Positions 193 to 9,768 of a stretch of DNA of 20,049 bases are shown in pieces. This stretch comes from a virus: IMG/VR virus record IMGVR_UViG_3300034684_000123, positions 1 through 20,049 of that record, one strand, 5' to 3'. Both the position numbers and the translations under genes were made by a program. The stretch's first letter is position 1; every line of letters begins with the position of its first letter. Below the pieces are notes generated by a model. That model was not told where the DNA came from, ran no database searches, and saw only the letters and a program-made list of their open reading frames with translations.

Positions 193-222
193 AAAACGGG
201 TCAATTCTATAATCCGTTTTTT
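193..222. terminator. Hairpin after recombinase stop
   Basis: AAAACGG (193-199) pairs with CCGTTTT (214-220) around a 14-nt loop, directly abutting the stop codon (221-223) of the recombinase remnant. It is followed by T's on the plus strand and by TTTTAC on the minus strand. It could end minus-strand recombinase transcription or plus-strand transcription entering from the left. The stem is short and AT-rich, so it is weak. Confidence 0.4.
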
Positions 223-949
223 ATACTTCAATCTCAATGCCAGATTTAAAGCTTATCACAAAATGCTCTTCGTACACGGTGACGTTTTGGATGAGCTTCC
301 TTACAAGCGTGTCGTCATATAGTAGGGTGCGATATTTGTTTTTGCGGATAATTTCTACCAGTTCGTTGATCCGCTCATTCTCACCACTTAATGATGCATC
401 TTCCACAAGGAGGCTCTGTCGCTCTTCACGGAGCTTATCAATCTCATCGGCTAAGAATTCGTAATCCTTTCCTTTGTTGGCGAGGCTGATTACTTCTTTC
501 TGCTTTTCCTCTAGTAGTTTGTTAATTTCTGAAATCTTATATTCTGTGGTGTCACCAATTACCGCATGGATGTTTTCTTCTAGTGTTCTTATCATGTTAT
601 CTCCACCGGCAAGGAGTCTATTAATGGCAGTCATAACCGCATCATATAAATCTCCTTCTTTTACCGTCCGGTTCTTACACGTTTCAGGACCTTGCTCGAT
701 TCTCGTAACGCATCGCCATACAAACTCTTTTCTACCGCGTATATTCCAATACACCCGTCTGTAAATGTCCCCGCAATCCCCACAGAAGGTTATGGTGCTC
801 AAAGCATATTTACTGCTATAGAGTCTTTTGTTTTTATCTGTTCCTGTGTAAATATTATTCCTGCGATGAAGTTCTTCCTGAGCCTGTAAAAATAGTTCCT
901 TTGGTATGATCGCCTCATGGCTATTTTCAACATAATACTGTGGGACATG
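221..949 (-). pseudogene. C-terminal fragment of IS-split large serine recombinase
   Basis: This is the 3' part of the recombinase whose 5' part lies at 2278-3123. Read in frame from the CAT codon at 949-947, it gives HVPQYYVENSHEAIIPKE, the end of the recombinase DNA-binding domain. A zinc-ribbon follows (CGDCG, then two later Cys near the end of the ribbon), then a long charged coiled coil (repeated E/K-rich heptads), then a beta-strand tail ending IEIEV. These are the usual C-terminal parts of large serine recombinases and govern DNA contact and synapsis control. The catalytic domain is absent here. A TTG at 802 could nominally start a 193-aa product, but it has no convincing ribosome binding site and falls inside the zinc-ribbon, so I call it a remnant. 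Removing the IS plus one copy of the duplicated target restores one 520-aa frame, almost the size of the neighbouring 519-aa recombinase. Confidence 0.9.
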
Positions 950-998
950 GAGCTAAGCCCTCTGTCAAGACAAAGATCTAGAAATATAAAGAATATTT

Positions 999-1988
999 CT
1001 AAGCTACCTGAATATCCTTTTCCCTTATAGGGAAACATCCTTGTTCATATACTTCATTTGGTGTTTGGTAATCCAAGCCTTGATGAAGTCTCTCGTCGTT
1101 GAAGAATGCTATGAAAGCATCCAAACCATTTGAAAGCTGGGTCATCGTATTGTAGTCGTGGAGGAAGATACATTCATACTTCAAGGTCCGCCAAGTCCGC
1201 TCTACGAAAATGTTGTCTAAACATCTTCCAATGCCATCCATGCTAATCCGGATCCCATATCCCTCCAGCATTGCAATGAACTCTTTACTTGTGTACTGAG
1301 ATCCACAATCTGTGTTAAAGATGGCAGGCATTCCATATTTAGCTATGGCTTCCTGAACGCAATCCATACAGAATTGGGTATCCATTGTGTTGCTCAGGCT
1401 CCAGGAGAGGATTTTCCTGCTGTAGAGATCAATGACAGCCGTAAAGTACACCATGCCTCCAGGAAGCTTGATATAGGTAATATCTGTTGCCCAAACCTCA
1501 TTCACAAAGCTGATCTTTCGGTTCCTGAGCAGGTAAGGGAACTTTTTCTCCTTTCTCTTGCTGTTCCTGGTCGTCTTGAATACCGGGGCTAGTCCCTGCA
1601 GACCCAACATCTTGTAAATACGTCTCACACGCTTCTCAGTGGCCTCTGGATGCTTCTTTCGCTGGAGATAGAATGACATCTTCCTATAACCATAGGTCGG
1701 GTATTCTACCCAGGCATCCATGACAATCTCTGCAAAAGCCTTCTCTTCAGCAAAGAATTCCATCCTGAGCCGTTCCTGTTCCTCGTGATGGTTTCTCCAG
1801 TAGTAAAAAGAAGATCGAGGTATGCCCAACAACGTGCACTGCTTGTAGACTGGCAAAGTAAAGGGCCTTTTTGGGCCTTCTGGCTTCGCCAGCTCAAAAT
1901 CTACCAGATAACAGAGGTCAGATCCTATAAATTCATCTTTTTTTTTAGGAATGCTAGCTCCATCTGGGTTTTTCCAAGTTCTGTACAA
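999..1988 (-). CDS. IS3-family transposase OrfB (DDE integrase domain)
   Basis: This is the catalytic half of the IS3 transposase, which cuts and joins the element ends in the cytoplasm. An HTH_21-like N-terminal segment (SSFYYW... YPTYGYRKM...RRIYKMLGL) precedes an rve/RNase H-fold domain. The DDE triad is visible: D in WATDITYI, D in NTDCGSQY, and E in DNIFVERTW, with exactly 35 residues between the second D and the E, the classic D(35)E spacing. The annotated start at 1988 is only the open-frame start. The frame overlaps orfA by about 64 bp and has no ribosome binding site of its own, so the functional product is expected to be the OrfAB fusion made by frameshifting on the A-run at 1938-1946 (about 403 aa from 2209 to 999). 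No internal damage is seen, so the transposase looks intact. Confidence 0.93.
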   Translation of the reverse strand: MYRTWKNPDGASIPKKKDEFIGSDLCYLVDFELAKPEGPKRPFTLPVYKQCTLLGIPRSSFYYWRNHHEEQERLRMEFFAEEKAFAEIVMDAWVEYPTYGYRKMSFYLQRKKHPEATEKRVRRIYKMLGLQGLAPVFKTTRNSKRKEKKFPYLLRNRKISFVNEVWATDITYIKLPGGMVYFTAVIDLYSRKILSWSLSNTMDTQFCMDCVQEAIAKYGMPAIFNTDCGSQYTSKEFIAMLEGYGIRISMDGIGRCLDNIFVERTWRTLKYECIFLHDYNTMTQLSNGLDAFIAFFNDERLHQGLDYQTPNEVYEQGCFPIREKDIQVA

Positions 1989-2209
1989 GTTTCTTCATTA
2001 ACCTGCTTCAGCTCTGCATTCTCTTTCTTGAGCTGTTTGACTTCCTTGGAAAAGCCTCCTGATAGAAATGCTTTTTTCCAGTTTGATACCATACTTCCAG
2101 AAATCCCATGCTTTGCTGCAATCTCATTTACAGTGTTTTTTTCTTTGATAGCTTCTATAGCTACCTCTTTCTTGAAAGTGTCTGTAAAAGTCTTTCTGTT
2201 CCTACCCAT
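1925..2209 (-). CDS. IS3-family transposase OrfA (helix-turn-helix)
   Basis: A 94-residue protein of the HTH_Tnp_1/OrfA type that binds the IS ends. The N-terminal half has the helix-turn-helix (residues about 10-50: VAIEAIKEKNTVNEIAAKHG then SMVSNWKKAF), and the rest is a leucine/glutamate-rich coiled coil (KQLKKENAELKQVNEE) used for multimerisation. An AAGGAG ribosome binding site precedes the ATG at 2209 at normal spacing. The gene ends just past the A9 slip site. In IS3 elements OrfA alone is a regulator, and OrfAB, made by -1 frameshifting, is the transposase. Confidence 0.92.
   Translation of the reverse strand: MGRNRKTFTDTFKKEVAIEAIKEKNTVNEIAAKHGISGSMVSNWKKAFLSGGFSKEVKQLKKENAELKQVNEETCTELGKTQMELAFLKKKMNL
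1938..1946 (-). promoter_or_regulatory. Programmed -1 frameshift site (A9 run)
   Basis: On the minus strand the sequence is CCT followed by nine A's and GATG. The orfA frame reads CTA AAA AAA AAG ATG and the orfB frame reads CCT AAA AAA AAA GAT, so a one-base backward slip on the A-run joins the two frames. This is the usual arrangement for IS3-family OrfAB expression. Frameshifting efficiency cannot be judged here, and no clear stimulatory structure was identified. Confidence 0.85.
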
Positions 2210-2277
2210 ACTGTTTCTCCTTGTTGTAAGGTAGCAAACATTCCTTATTTATTTAAGATACTGTCCAAAACCTGGTC

Positions 2278-3123
2278 TTAGTATACATGGCCTTCATTCT
2301 TAACTCTTTTCTTTGTAAGGAAATCCACGGTGAAGGTCTTCTGTAAAAGGGCATCCCCGATGTACTTTTCGTTCAAGAGAATCTTCTTTATGGTCTCCGG
2401 TCGCCATCTTGGTTTTCCTGCAGCTGTTAAAATACCGTCCTTCTCAAGATCCCTACCAATGCCTACTAGGCTCTTGCCCTCAAGATACTCTCTATAAATG
2501 CGTTTAATGATTTCAGCCTCTTCAGGAACAATAATTAAGTTTCCTTCTTCATCTTTTGTGTACCCCATAAATCGATTGTGGTTGACCTGGACTTTCCCTT
2601 GCTGATATCGATACTGAAGTCCAAGTTTAACATTCTGAGAAAGGCTCTGACTCTCTTGCTGCGCGAGGGATGCCATAATGGTCAGAAGCACCTCTCCCTT
2701 GGCATCCATTGTGTTGATGTTCTCTTTCTCGAAAAATACGGATATGTTCTTATCCTTGAGCTGCCTAATATACTTTAAGCAGTCCAGAGTATTCCTGGCA
2801 AATCGACTAATGGATTTTGTAATAACCAGATCGATGTTTCCCTCCATGCACTCGTCGATCATGCGGTTGAACTCTTCTCTCTTTTTCGTGTTCGTGCCTG
2901 AAATACCATCATCTGCAAATATGCCTGCGAACTCCCATTCATTATTTTTCTTTATAAACTCAGTGTAATGAGCAACCTGCACCTCATAGCTGGAATTCTG
3001 CTCTTCAGTTTCTGTAGAAACACGGCAATAAGCAGCTACACGAAGTTTTTTTACTTTTTCTTTTGCAGCTGTACTTCCTACCCTTTTTCGTGCTGGAATT
3101 ACAGTTATGTTTTTCTCTGCCAA
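2278..3123 (-). pseudogene. N-terminal part of IS-split large serine recombinase
   Basis: The frame contains the resolvase catalytic domain and most of the recombinase domain of a phage-integrase-type large serine recombinase. The nucleophile is Ser36 in [12 protein letters not shown]; the conserved arginine region is [16 protein letters not shown], and YADDGISG-type sequence ([13 protein letters not shown]) is present. The recombinase domain includes [11 protein letters not shown]... and [23 protein letters not shown]. The start is TTG at 3123 with GAGG upstream; it lies one base after the previous gene's stop. The frame stops early (VKNEGHVY-stop) because the IS supplies the TAA. The zinc-ribbon and coiled coil now lie beyond the IS at 221-949. 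A 281-aa product with the catalytic core could still be made, but proteins of this family lacking the C-terminal domain are not expected to integrate normally. Confidence 0.92.
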
Positions 3124-3124
3124 T

Positions 3125-3541
3125 TTAAACCTCGCTTTCTATCAGACTATACAGGTACTCCGCTCGCCCTACTGGATCATCTGGAAGCTTACCTTCTGAT
3201 TTTTTCATTTTAAATCTTTCTATAGGTGGGGGAGCACTGAAAGCTGCAAGCTCTGCAATCCTCCCTAGATCCTTCGCACGTTTACTTCTAACTTCTTCAG
3301 CCTTATCAAACGTCTCTTTATCAATGATTGCGGGGTATACGTCATTTCCAAGATAGTTGACGTTTTTCAAAATAAGGCCCATTGATGAATGAGTCTTCTG
3401 AATACCAGCCTGCTCACCGGCCACAGCTAGAGAAAGTCCTGAAATGTACTTTTCAAAGAAATCCCTTACTTGATCCGCAGCCCTTTCATCAACGGTAACA
3501 ACTCCATCCGTAATTGCATATCCGTATGGCACATAGGCCAT
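3125..3541 (-). CDS. Small recombinase-domain protein lacking the catalytic domain
   Basis: A 138-residue protein matching only the 'Recombinase' DNA-binding domain of large serine recombinases. It opens with [22 protein letters not shown] and continues through [23 protein letters not shown], parallel to the YGYAN.NGEMVIVPEEAEVVKRIF and EKYKGDALFQKT regions of its neighbours. There is no resolvase domain (no ARVS serine motif) and no zinc-ribbon. Its ATG is immediately after the upstream recombinase's TAA, and the downstream recombinase starts one base after its stop, so it is translationally embedded between two full-size recombinases. Small genes of this type recur between paired recombinases in clostridial phages and elements, which argues against decay. 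A role as accessory or directionality factor is inference. Confidence 0.8.
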
Positions 3542-5101
3542 TTACCTCACCACCCTTTCTTTAAGAGAAAGCCCACATTTTAATTTAAATGTCAGTTCAT
3601 CCCTTGAATTTACAATGATGTTTTCTACAAACTTTTCAAATACCTCGTCTGTATAGTTTCCATCAAACTTATCTTTCGACACATGCTCAAGAATCGCCTT
3701 TACCTCATCTGCCTGTGATGTTCCACTTGTAAATGACATGACCAGGTTTGTCTTCTCAGTGGTTAGATTTTTTATTTCGCTATCCAGAACATTTCGTTCC
3801 TTGCTAAAAAGTGCTGATTCAAGAAACCCTTTTGTCATAAGGCCAATAAGCGTATTGCGCTCTTCGGTCAATTGCTCCATTCGCTTATCGATGGCATCAA
3901 TTCTTTCAAGGTCGCACTCTTCTTGGTTTTTACTTATGGAATCATAAAGTGGCCCAAGGATAATCTTTCTGCTGTAGGCAAGCTTATTCATCATGGTGGC
4001 AAAGGTTGCCTTTATCTCTCCATCCCGAATAAATAGCATGGAGCAGCTGTTCTTGTTTTCAATATGCCCTATGCAGCTCCAGGCGATATAACTTCTGCCA
4101 GCAGAGTAGTTTGTTTTTCTCCTAAATGTGGACCCACACTCTCCACAGATGATTTTGCCGCTTAATACATATCTATTTTGATAAGCCTTTTTGTTAACAG
4201 TCTTACTCTTCGCTCTTTGTGTGATCAGCTTTTGTGCCTTAGAAAAAACTTCTTTGCTGACGATAGGCTCATGATGATTCTTGCAGTAAAATTGGTCTTT
4301 CTCACCTTTATTAGGTCGTCGATTGAAGTTGTTATCCGTGTAAGTCTTTTGGAAAAGCGCATCCCCTTTGTATTTTTCATTTCGGAGCATATCAATCACT
4401 GTTCCTGTGCTCCAATGATAACCTCTTCTCGCAGGAATCTTGTCCCTGTTAAGGCCCTTTGCAATCACACTTCCACCTTTACCTGAAAGGCACTCTGAAA
4501 AAATGCGCTTAACAACTTCTGCTTCTTCTGGAACGATGACCATCTCACCATTCACATTGGCATAACCATAAGGGGGACTGCCAATAATGAAACTGCCATT
4601 TTGAAATTTTTTGCTGATTGACCATGTCATGTTCTGCGAAATGGATGCGGACTCTTCAGCAGCAAACCCAGATAAAATTGAGAGCATCAATTCACTTTCC
4701 ATGTCGCCTGTGTTCAGATTTTCTTTCTCAAAATAAATAAATACACCGATATTTAAGAGTTTTCTTACCAGCTCTAAGCAATCCGTGGTATTACGTGCAA
4801 AACGACTTATGGATTTGGTGATAATAAAATCAACTCGATTACTTTCACAATCACGAATCATACGAAGAAGCTCAGGACGTTTTTCCTTCTTGGTACCTGA
4901 TATGCCTTCGTCATAATAAAGCCCTGCAAACTCCCATTCTGGATTGGATTTGATGTAGTTTTCATAGTGCTCCCGCTGAGCTTTAAGGCTTTCTAACTGT
5001 TCATCGCTATCTGTTGAAACCCGAGCATAAGCGGCCACTCGAAGTTTAATATTTGATGACTGTGTTTTATTCAGTTCATCGATCTTCGTTATCTTTTTCA
5101 T
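3542..5101 (-). CDS. Large serine recombinase (phage integrase type)
   Basis: A 519-residue site-specific recombinase of the large serine family, expected to cut and exchange attP/attB through a phosphoserine link. Domains in order: resolvase catalytic domain (about 20-165, nucleophile Ser29 in AYARVSTDSDEQ, conserved [16 protein letters not shown]), recombinase domain (about 180-290, PPYGYANVNGEMVIV and NEKYKGDALFQKTYTD), zinc-ribbon (CGECG near 320 with later Cys in SCIGH..NSC), then a C-terminal coiled coil (about 390-460) and tail. It is full-length and shows no damage. The start ATG at 5101 has GAGGTGA upstream. It leads a three-gene recombinase block whose third member is broken by the IS. 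Whether this protein can act alone on the att sites cannot be told from sequence. Confidence 0.95.
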   Translation of the reverse strand: MKKITKIDELNKTQSSNIKLRVAAYARVSTDSDEQLESLKAQREHYENYIKSNPEWEFAGLYYDEGISGTKKEKRPELLRMIRDCESNRVDFIITKSISRFARNTTDCLELVRKLLNIGVFIYFEKENLNTGDMESELMLSILSGFAAEESASISQNMTWSISKKFQNGSFIIGSPPYGYANVNGEMVIVPEEAEVVKRIFSECLSGKGGSVIAKGLNRDKIPARRGYHWSTGTVIDMLRNEKYKGDALFQKTYTDNNFNRRPNKGEKDQFYCKNHHEPIVSKEVFSKAQKLITQRAKSKTVNKKAYQNRYVLSGKIICGECGSTFRRKTNYSAGRSYIAWSCIGHIENKNSCSMLFIRDGEIKATFATMMNKLAYSRKIILGPLYDSISKNQEECDLERIDAIDKRMEQLTEERNTLIGLMTKGFLESALFSKERNVLDSEIKNLTTEKTNLVMSFTSGTSQADEVKAILEHVSKDKFDGNYTDEVFEKFVENIIVNSRDELTFKLKCGLSLKERVVR

Positions 5102-5162: not shown

Positions 5163-5378
5163 TTAGGACATAATCTCGGCTAGCTTTGGTAAGAATTTCT
5201 GTCGGTTTAATGCAGATATTTTGTGTCGTTCATTCTCTGTAATCTTGCCTTCTTTATGGAGCATTCCGATAATGCTTTCTGCTATATAAAAGTCATACTC
5301 TCTCTGCAACTGTTCTTCTGTCATTGGTTCTGTCTCACCCTTGATCGGGCTGCCATCTTTCACTTCAATAATCTTCAT
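5163..5378 (-). CDS. SHOCT-like small protein upstream of recombinases
   Basis: A 71-residue acidic-to-neutral protein beginning MKIIEVKDGSPIKGETEPM, followed by TEEQLQREYDFYIAESIIGMLHKEGKITENERHKISALNRQKF. This resembles the SHOCT-type short helical module (E-x-L-x-x-x-G-x-I-T-x-x-E). Small proteins of this kind are commonly found directly upstream of serine recombinases in clostridial phages; their role is unknown, and regulation of recombination is only a guess. It starts at ATG 5378 with an AGGAGGTG ribosome binding site 8 T's upstream. That ribosome binding site is itself inside a terminator-like hairpin (5379-5418), so its expression may be conditional. A 61-bp gap separates it from the recombinase at 5101. 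Confidence 0.75.
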   Translation of the reverse strand: MKIIEVKDGSPIKGETEPMTEEQLQREYDFYIAESIIGMLHKEGKITENERHKISALNRQKFLPKLAEIMS

Positions 5379-5418
5379 AAAAAAAACACCTCCTACCTGG
5401 TAGCCACGGCAAGAGGTG
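5379..5418 (-). terminator. Terminator-like hairpin enclosing a Shine-Dalgarno
   Basis: On the minus strand CACCTCTTGCC (5418-5408) pairs with GGTAGGAGGTG (5397-5387) as an 11-bp stem with two G-T wobbles and a 10-nt loop, followed directly by eight T's (5386-5379) and then the ATG of the SHOCT-like gene. The stem's 3' arm contains AGGAGGTG, the only ribosome binding site for that gene. The structure thus resembles a rho-independent terminator of the polymerase operon and, if read through, would mask translation initiation. Confidence 0.72.
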
Positions 5419-5434
5419 AAATCTGATTGTTTAA
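5393..5434 (-). repeat. Leader element copy 1 (GGCTACCAGGTAG box)
   Basis: A 42-nt element starting right after the polymerase stop codon. On the minus strand it reads TTAAAC-2 nt-TCAGATTT-13 nt-GGCTACCAGGTAG. A second copy with the same blocks and identical spacing lies at 9686-9727. The two copies are identical in the 13-nt, 8-nt and 6-nt blocks and diverge in between. Conserved blocks at fixed spacing upstream of small genes suggest a structured RNA leader or a protein-binding site. Confidence 0.7.
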
Positions 5435-7375
5435 CTAATCTTTCTTATAAAATTCGCATTCATAACCATCGGTATCAAGAAGCAATCCCTTTGCCCAGGG
5501 AGGGACTCTACTCATCTGCTGGCACACCCTATCAAGTGACATGCTAGGATTCGCCTCAATAATAACTTCATCATGCACATGAGCCACAATGCGGTAAGAG
5601 CTTAGAGTCTTTATGGCATGCATCAAAATATCACGAGAGATTGCTTGGACAATGTTTTCTACAAACTTAGGCCCATAGCTTTCAAGTCGATCCCATTTCT
5701 TTGTAGCACCAACACCTTCGTAAGTGACCGATTCACCACCGAAGATATTCTCACCAATCTTTGGTTTAACATAGGCAAGCTGCCTACCAGAAGGAAGAAC
5801 AATAAAGAGCATTCCACTCCTGTAATGAAACTTAATATTTTGTTTTTCTTGAGACTGCTTTTCCTTAATACACTTCTTAGCTGCTCTATCCACATCCCAC
5901 CAGAATTTTACGATGTACGGGTTAGCCTGCCTCCAGGCATTAACTAGGGGTTTTAATTCTTCCTCCTCAAGGCCCATATCCAGTGCGCCCATAGCCTTTA
6001 AAGCTCCCACTGATCCACCGTATCCCAGGGCCAGTTCTGCGATCTTGCCTTTCTGCCTTAAATGCCCATTCACACCATGCTTTTCTACCGGGACATTAAA
6101 CATCTGTGATGCGGATGCACAATAAATGTCACCGCCGCTTGCAAATACTTCACTTCTCCAATCTTCACCTGCAAGCCATGATAGCACACGAGCCTCAATG
6201 GCAGAAAAGTCGGCAACTATAAACTTACAGCCTTTCTTTGGCACAAAAGCTGTCCGAATAAGCTGTGAAAGAGTATCTGGTATATCTTCATAGAGCATTT
6301 CAAGGGTTTCATGATCACCGCTCTTTACTATGCCTCGTGCCTCTTTTAAATCCGGCATATGGTTTTGCGGCAGGTTCTGCAGCTGGACTATTTTTGAGCT
6401 GAAGCGTCCAGTCCGATTGGCACCCAGAAAAGTAAACATACCACGAATCCTGCCATCACTGCAGACTGCATTTTCCATTGCCGTATATTTCTTTACGGAT
6501 GACTTTGCCAGTTGCTGACGGAGTTTAAGAACTTCAGCCAAATGCTCTGGTGCGTCCTTCAATAACTCTGCCACAGCCTTTTTACCGAGGGTATCTGTTT
6601 CTAGACCATTATCAGCCAGCCAGTCTTTCATCTGCTGTACTGAATTGGGGTTATCAAGTTCTGTTATTTCCTGCATCTGATCCATTAGCTTGGTGTGTGA
6701 AATCTCATTCATAGCGATAGCTTGCTTTACGAAGTCCATGTCTACCTTGATGCCTCGATCATTGATTTCCTGATCAAGATGGTACTCATGCCATATTTCA
6801 TCCGGGACAGGAAACTTACTAAGCCTCTTTTGTATCTCAATTTCCGTTTCAACATCTCGCTTGTTATAGTCTTTAAACCTCTGCCACTTTTCTTCATCGT
6901 CACTTGGTAGATTACGAGTTCTTCCACCGTTTGTTTTGGTAGGCATACACGGTACACAAAAATATCTAATAAGATCTTTACCTTCTGTCAGCTTCTGCTT
7001 TTCAAGACCAAGGACTGCACCCACACCTACTAAGGATAACGGAAGCCCCATATAGGCAGACCATACCATTGAGCATTTCCATGCGGATGGATTTAGATAT
7101 TCTCCACAAGGGTGTCCAAGATATCTGGATAGACAGACACGCTCAAACTGAGCATTAAAAGCCCACTTGGTTACTTTTTCATCGGTCAAGGCATCCAGTA
7201 TGATCTGTGGTATCTTTTCATCTTTCGCAAGGTCAACCACCATCACCTCTCCACCGTCAACAGAATAACCAAAGAGCAGTATTTCAAAATCATCCGCCTC
7301 CACATAGCGATAAACTCCACTCTTTTGTAGGTTGATAGATGAGTAGGTTTCGATATCAATTTCAAGACTTCTCAT
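5435..7375 (-). CDS. Phage family A DNA polymerase (3'-5' exo + pol)
   Basis: A 646-residue DNA polymerase I-type enzyme of the short phage class that replicates phage DNA. The N-terminal third is a DEDDy proofreading exonuclease: Exo I is DIET (Asp7, Glu9), Exo II is in FNAQFE, Exo III is in YNKRDVETE. The polymerase domain has motif A DFSAIEARVLSW (about 388-399), motif B RQKGKIAELALGYGG, and motif C HVHDEV (about 599). All key residues are present, so it should be active. There is no 5'-3' exonuclease domain, as expected for phage forms. The ATG at 7375 has GGAGG seven bases upstream. It is last in an operon with DUF2800 and DUF2815 genes, a common clostridial phage neighbourhood, but here the usual primase/helicase genes do not follow; the integration genes do. 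Confidence 0.96.
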   Translation of the reverse strand: MRSLEIDIETYSSINLQKSGVYRYVEADDFEILLFGYSVDGGEVMVVDLAKDEKIPQIILDALTDEKVTKWAFNAQFERVCLSRYLGHPCGEYLNPSAWKCSMVWSAYMGLPLSLVGVGAVLGLEKQKLTEGKDLIRYFCVPCMPTKTNGGRTRNLPSDDEEKWQRFKDYNKRDVETEIEIQKRLSKFPVPDEIWHEYHLDQEINDRGIKVDMDFVKQAIAMNEISHTKLMDQMQEITELDNPNSVQQMKDWLADNGLETDTLGKKAVAELLKDAPEHLAEVLKLRQQLAKSSVKKYTAMENAVCSDGRIRGMFTFLGANRTGRFSSKIVQLQNLPQNHMPDLKEARGIVKSGDHETLEMLYEDIPDTLSQLIRTAFVPKKGCKFIVADFSAIEARVLSWLAGEDWRSEVFASGGDIYCASASQMFNVPVEKHGVNGHLRQKGKIAELALGYGGSVGALKAMGALDMGLEEEELKPLVNAWRQANPYIVKFWWDVDRAAKKCIKEKQSQEKQNIKFHYRSGMLFIVLPSGRQLAYVKPKIGENIFGGESVTYEGVGATKKWDRLESYGPKFVENIVQAISRDILMHAIKTLSSYRIVAHVHDEVIIEANPSMSLDRVCQQMSRVPPWAKGLLLDTDGYECEFYKKD

Positions 7376-9643: not shown

Positions 9644-9685
9644 ATCCATCACCTCTTTCTGAAGGGCGCTTTTATTTGTTGCCCT

Positions 9686-9728: not shown

Positions 9729-9768
9729 AAAAAAAATGCCCAAGGAAGTTTTAAACCTCCAAGGGCAT
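9729..9768 (-). terminator. Strong rho-independent terminator after endolysin
   Basis: On the minus strand ATGCCC pairs with GGGCAT (9768-9763 with 9741-9736). After a TT/TT mismatch an inner stem GGAGGT/ACTTCC follows, with loop TTAAA. Eight T's follow the hairpin (complement of 9736-9729). It stands five bases past the amidase stop codon and closes the lysis operon, separating it from the DUF2800-polymerase block. Confidence 0.88.

Follow-up and report, generated by a model that had tools for sequence, protein, structure and literature searches.

In phage T4 (e, I-TevI and segB) and phage Aeh1 (mobE), hairpins over the ribosome binding site act in a manner that depends on where transcription starts (PMC2988022, PMC3014915). 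For T4 e and I-TevI, the Shine-Dalgarno sequence (SD) is folded away in the long early RNA, while the RNA from the late promoter does not contain the 5' strand of the hairpin and is translated (PMC3014915, PMC2988022). A large hairpin in the leader of Bacillus subtilis sigG has likewise been proposed to block the translation of spoIIG read-through RNA, and this hairpin cannot form in RNA initiated at PsigG (PMC5942855).

The locus described here, on the minus strand of a 20,049-nucleotide viral stretch (the window, meaning the whole stretch of DNA that was analysed), carries a terminator-form hairpin directly before a SHOCT and recombinase operon. It is like the T4 e/I-TevI type in that the SD is hidden in long upstream RNA and in that late genes lie behind earlier operons. 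In the T4 type, however, the late promoter lies in the 5' strand of the hairpin, whereas here a promoter-like core is enclosed by the hairpin, with a putative start within it. The hairpin here also bears a U-tract, the phage is temperate and of the Firmicutes type, and the role of gp55 in T4 would fall to an ECF-like protein with a region 4. The sigG leader differs in belonging to a cellular gene with known sigma factors and a mapped start, and no U-tract terminator has been described for it. Fold-back inhibition in IS10 and the leader hairpins of IS200 protect a transposase gene against transcription entering from outside, through a masked SD, a terminator or both, but these systems lack the phage regulon and the repeated promoter element of the present case. 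ArpU, RinA and Xpf of PBSX are small HTH or sigma-like activators of Gram-positive phage operons, whereas no function is assigned to the PHROG 11138 proteins considered below, and each phage group has different presumed boxes for them. Three features are new compared with the known systems: the hairpin is fused with an intrinsic terminator, the element recurs at three operons, and it is linked to a sigma-like family that has no assignment.

The hairpin before the SHOCT gene

The SHOCT_2 protein gene (5163-5378, minus strand, 71 aa; PF20612, E 1.6e-10) is followed on the same strand by genes encoding large serine recombinase 1 (3542-5101, 519 aa), a short recombinase-domain protein (3125-3541, 138 aa) and the N-terminal part of large serine recombinase 3 (2278-3123). 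The last gene (221-3123, minus) is broken by an IS3-type element with transposase orfs at 1925-2209 and 999-1988, leaving its remainder at 221-802, and given this split the excision or integration of this phage copy may be impaired. Upstream of the SHOCT gene lies the family A DNA polymerase gene polA (5435-7375, minus), whose transcript is proposed to terminate at the hairpin, and further upstream an Enc34-type SSB and DUF2800 are encoded. Another terminator-like hairpin (7428-7402, minus; GGTGGTGGGGGTATTTCCTCTGCCACC, then TGCTTTTTT) is present between the SSB gene and polA. A literature search for SHOCT with serine recombinases in prophages returned nothing useful.

The minus strand from 5418 to 5387 reads CACCTCTTGCCGTGGCTACCAGGTAGGAGGTG and forms an 11-bp stem with a 10-nt loop (arms and loop CACCTCTTGCC-GTGGCTACCA-GGTAGGAGGTG), in which the stem contains two G-U pairs and the loop is able to add TGG/CCA. 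A T8 tract (5386-5379), matched by a T-run in nearly all homologues at this site, connects the hairpin to the ATG at 5378-5376, which opens the 71-codon SHOCT gene, and the sole SD of this gene, AGGAGG at 5394-5389, is located in the 3' arm. Folded alone, the hairpin reaches -20.5 kcal/mol (z = -4.65, with 0 of 200 shuffles as good). Two statements of the initial annotation are confirmed, namely that a terminator-form hairpin with T8 abuts the ATG and that its 3' arm provides the only SD. The plus-strand reading of the region was rejected, its fold being unremarkable (z -1.25). Perfect stems of 9-12 bp with a T-rich tract occur four times in the window, this hairpin included, and it alone carries GGAGG in the 3' arm; a generic terminator scan had passed over it because the loop limit of the scan was 8 nt.

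Among viral loci collected by means of the SHOCT protein, 30 of 32 retain the hairpin and the T-run, nearly identical letter by letter; of the remaining two, one starts within the gene and the other is the distant relative L033. A degenerate hairpin pattern matched 56 viral stretches, and wherever enough downstream sequence is available a reading frame opens at the predicted position, in nearly every case SHOCT. Hairpin and T-run precede SHOCT in more than 50 other viral contigs. One contig (L259) carries the element before a different small gene. Divergent members alter both arms jointly, as in a Ruminococcus phage (L096, TACCTCC...GGAGGTA). Covariation in homologous leaders, which the initial annotation had named as a check, was seen in an alignment of 29 distinct sequences, comprising copies from this position (site 1) and from a second position of the repeated element (site 2, see below): 92.5% of the cells pair, the closing pair is C-G in 20 sequences, G-C in 6, U-G in 2 and U-A in 1, changes on both sides were found in 9 cells versus 1.9 +/- 1.2 in shuffles, and the covariation score was 0.230 against 0.148 +/- 0.012 for shuffles (0/500 as high) and at most 0.116 for slid controls. 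The hairpin has the sequence features of an intrinsic terminator, i.e. a stable stem, a U-tract directly behind it and conservation with covariation, and the proposal that termination form and SD masking are combined in one structure upstream of the integration genes is supported by fold and conservation. No gathering-score match to the covariance models of Rfam 15 was obtained in the window or in 15 related loci; candidates in the window (E up to 5) were limited to eukaryotic and pyrrolysine models far below their gathering scores and were discarded.

A repeated bipartite element and its neighbouring sigma-like gene

The hairpin overlaps a larger bipartite element, TCAGATT-N14-GGCTA-NN-AGGTAG, of which the 5' box has the variant TCAACTT in type A/B phages. 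At site 1 the 5' box TCAGATT (5420-5426, minus) and the core GGCTA-CC-AGGTAG (5393-5405, minus) would correspond to -35-like and -10-like sequences, respectively. The window contains two copies, both exact and both on the minus strand, at 5426-5393 and 9719-9686, the latter standing at site 3 before the 75aa-107aa-DUF2800-SSB-polA operon, where the strong hairpin and the T-run are absent. A third copy would lie beyond the end of the 20,049-base sequence, which is an isolated IMG/VR record. Most completely read type A/B phages, among them Streptococcus phage Javan630, have three copies, all on the sense strand and each before an operon (site 3, 75aa-DUF2800-SSB-polA; site 2, Rha/BRO antirepressor; site 1, SHOCT-recombinase), while the type A record G031 has two instead of three. 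In genomes with this prophage, GGCTAYYAGGYAGGAGGT often recurs, equally oriented, at a distance of approximately 34-38 kb.

Phages with more distant SHOCT modules possess their own pairs of boxes with fixed spacing in similar places, and these were designated types C (ACTCAAA..TGTCCTGTGGAT), D (CCCCTCAAA..TCTCCGTAT), E (GTCCAAA..TTCCAGTGAGTT) and F (GGTTCGATT..TTTTGCATATAGG). Type F leaders (L094, L127, L204, L212 and L033) additionally display, a short distance ahead of the core, GGGTTCGATT or a similar sequence that looks like the T-arm of a tRNA; in the completely read type F phage this sequence stands 10 nt before TTTTGCATATAGG. Over 71 distinct A/B elements the information per position was 1.71 bits in the 5' box, 0.93 in the spacer, 2.0 in GGCTA and 1.75 in AGGTAG, a contrast between boxes and spacer which is partly by construction because the scan asked for the box columns. 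The element is often found directly behind a terminator, where there is no space for another promoter.

In nine of nine phages examined for it, covering types A-F, the 3' end of a gene with a sigma70 region 4 coincides with the first copy of the element or lies near it. Its product of approximately 165-200 aa matched PHROG 11138, a family without function annotation, in the four types tested, followed in rank by RNA polymerase sigma factor PHROGs including PHROG 1740. Region 4 was recognised by PF08281 or PF04545 at or near the cut-off (more weakly in type B, E 0.005), and the NCBIfam model TIGR02937 (sigma70-ECF) scored E 4e-8, below the model cut-off. Region 2 had no match in Pfam, and the structure model was poor (pLDDT 62), notably in the N-terminal half, with the exception of the C-terminal part. 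Among solved structures, this part comes closest to sigma-factor domains that bind the -35 box, although the E-values are weak. A structure-based claim on region 2 was dropped for the poor quality of the model, and a PDB sequence search matched nothing. A weak match to PHROG 79, 'anti-termination protein Q-like', was also observed (E 4e-4). Because only region 4 is recognisable and the model is poor, the protein may not be a sigma factor but an activator or an antiterminator of the Q-like kind. Five further phages were used as a check, of which three fit the pattern fully or partly: L234 has a new box type in three copies with a sigma-like gene just before the first, L221 has several copies and a sigma-like gene, and L227 has a sigma-like gene and a weak copy. 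The other two (L211 and L196) did not fit, neither a second copy nor a sigma-like gene being found.

A putative start inside the hairpin and the rival explanations

The fixed spacing, the variable middle, the position at operon starts, the adjacency to terminators and the linked sigma-like gene together make the boxes fit a -35/-10-like pair, and they may represent a promoter of the sigma-like protein or its site as an activator. With such a putative promoter in the 5' region of the hairpin, transcription would start at or just behind AGGTAG, and the mRNA of site 1 would therefore begin at the SD. The predicted probability of the SD being unpaired was 0.00 for RNA starting at 5470, 5440, 5426 or 5418 and 0.000 for starts from 5500-5900, versus 0.42-0.81 for RNA starting within 5399-5393, so that by fold prediction the exposure of the SD depends on the start site as in T4 e and I-TevI. 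Polymerase coming from the polA operon would complete the whole hairpin and be released at the U-tract, and in any RNA that reads through the SD would be paired. An RNA started inside the hairpin, in contrast, would be unable to form the terminator and would keep its SD open at the 5' end because the 5' arm is missing. On the strength of the predicted SD exposure, read-through RNA would be terminated or silent and promoter-born RNA active. For their translation the SHOCT and integration genes probably depend entirely on RNA initiated within the hairpin, and such a start would place the SHOCT and recombinase genes under the phage's own regulator instead of leakage from the replication operon. 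Our preferred reading, held with moderate confidence, is that the hairpin is an insulator around a phage-specific promoter-like element.

The initial annotation had offered an attenuator that keeps the recombination genes off until an antiterminator or a separate transcript opens it. The antiterminator half of this suggestion found no support: no competing pairing was detected, and the SD was predicted to be paired from every upstream start tested. Within the 258 nt upstream, no duplex with the 5' arm exceeded shuffles (36% as good), and upstream pairing with the 3' arm was weak, being equalled by 6% of shuffles and falling short of the stability of the hairpin. The other half, opening by a separate transcript, is favoured in a form that adds a promoter-like element inside the hairpin, recurring before two other operons, with a transcript start that we infer.

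The copies of the element differ in their pairing according to what lies upstream. A/B copies behind polA and before SHOCT have a T-run and fold into hairpins with energies from -15.6 to -24.4 kcal/mol, those with a terminator just upstream (site 3, and site 1 of type B) reach -4 to -13 with no T-run, and those at site 2, which have no upstream terminator, mostly -13 to -20, again with no T-run. A T-run is present in 75 and absent from 29 copies with no upstream terminator, versus 2 and 55 of those with one (Fisher p 5e-19, to be read as a pattern and not as a probability because the lineages are not independent). Pairing of the upstream with the central arm exceeds that of shuffled arms in three cases, site 1, site 2 and type C2, and is no better than shuffles at site 3, at site 1 of type B and in types C, D, E and F. 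Since the pairing is absent from copies behind a terminator while the boxes persist there, the hairpin is an add-on, and we read the pairing as an insulator that was acquired where one was required and not as a universal switch. The initial annotation had regarded homologues that keep the SD and lose the pairing as evidence against its proposal; they occur in one branch, type B (for example L129 and L235), in which a separate terminator is found just upstream.

These comparisons bear directly on the strongest alternative, an RNA switch in which a protein or ligand binds the 5' box and loop and the central arm pairs either upstream (OFF, SD masked) or downstream (ON). Site 2 made this attractive: AGGAGGTC can pair with upstream GACCTTCT or with downstream GACCTCC (L293-L301), GACCTCC is also able to pair with the true SD, the arms vary jointly in L304/L307, and the central-downstream pairing is supported. 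At site 2 itself these pairings may point to an RNA switch rather than a plain promoter. As a universal three-arm switch it was nevertheless rejected, because in most copies the upstream arm paired no better than shuffled arms, notably behind terminators, although boxes and spacing persist there. RNA bearing the element would moreover need read-through wherever the element lies directly behind a terminator, and no Rfam family was matched, all of which makes the switch unlikely. We regard as quite unlikely that the sigma-like protein is a Q-like antiterminator which loads at the element and takes polymerase past this and other terminators. The position of the element at operon starts beside terminators and the weak PHROG 79 match agree with it, but PHROG 1740 and the sigma models of Pfam and NCBIfam outscore PHROG 79, and passage through the terminator alone would be insufficient for translation at site 1, where upstream RNA remains SD-masked. 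That a plain intrinsic terminator overlaps the next SD by chance and SHOCT is expressed from leaky read-through accords with the good terminator form of stem and U-tract; it is very improbable in view of the SD unpaired probability of 0.00 in read-through RNA, and it leaves unexplained the conserved 5' box and loop and the hairpin-free copies at two other operons.

The insulator reading is also consistent with the surroundings of the other copies. An intrinsic terminator behind an amidase gene (9729-9768, minus) lies directly upstream of the site 3 element, and the site 3 core is followed closely by a hairpin AGGGC..GCCCT (9663-9685, minus), located a little ahead of the SD, which would form the 5' end of the proposed transcript. 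A hairpin in this place is supported in most types (own arms -7.70 versus -5.70 +/- 0.20 kcal/mol for permuted arms), site 1 of types A and B having none, and is as expected of a 5'-end hairpin on RNA starting there. Separate instances of a terminator built around the core come from four type C phages (L157, L092, L217 and L155), at -23 to -25 kcal/mol with a T-rich tail. Insulation is no rule at the B-type junction of polA and antirepressor, because neither a terminator nor a strong hairpin is found there.

Gene order in types B, C, E and F is sigma - [element] DUF2800..polA - [element] antirepressor..lysis - terminator - [element] SHOCT-recombinases, whereas type A has the DUF2800..polA block between the lysis genes and SHOCT. 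The DUF2800-SSB-polA block accordingly stands at another copy of the element in type A (G028, L313-L315) than in types B, C and F (L329-L331, L316-L318 and L326-L328) and in type E, as if gene blocks had been exchanged at the repeated elements. Because type A has the polA block before SHOCT, its site 1 stands behind polA with no other terminator, and a full terminator appears to have been gained by the A/B element only at site 1, after polA. That the three repeats are crossover sites of the serine recombinases, as their direct orientation and the displaced block might indicate, is hardly credible, since the copies differ in the middle, lack palindromic symmetry and are positioned behind terminators and where genes begin, and the move of the block is explained by ordinary recombination of similar stretches.

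Implications for the phage family

We tentatively extend this reading to PHROG 11138 and its relatives, which could form a large family of small ECF-like initiators, each with a private promoter that is present at some three operon boundaries in a phage. Six or more types of boxes would have evolved along with the initiator. Terminators would have been built around the promoters repeatedly, so that within approximately 40 bp a boundary closes one transcript, masks the translation of read-through RNA and opens the following transcript. If true, this would provide a testable function for PHROG 11138, which so far has none, as well as several factor-promoter pairs, maybe orthogonal to host sigma factors, and the compact layout of terminator, promoter and SD would be usable as a gene-circuit part.

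In Erysipelothrix phage phi1605 (L034), a close relative of the module adjoins tetM, mef(A) and msr(D) cargo. Control of the recombinases bears on the movement of such elements, because the type A relatives include prophages with resistance cargo. If the proposed arrangement is correct, it would give temperate Firmicutes phages a way to silence their integration and excision recombinases during read-through from the replication genes.
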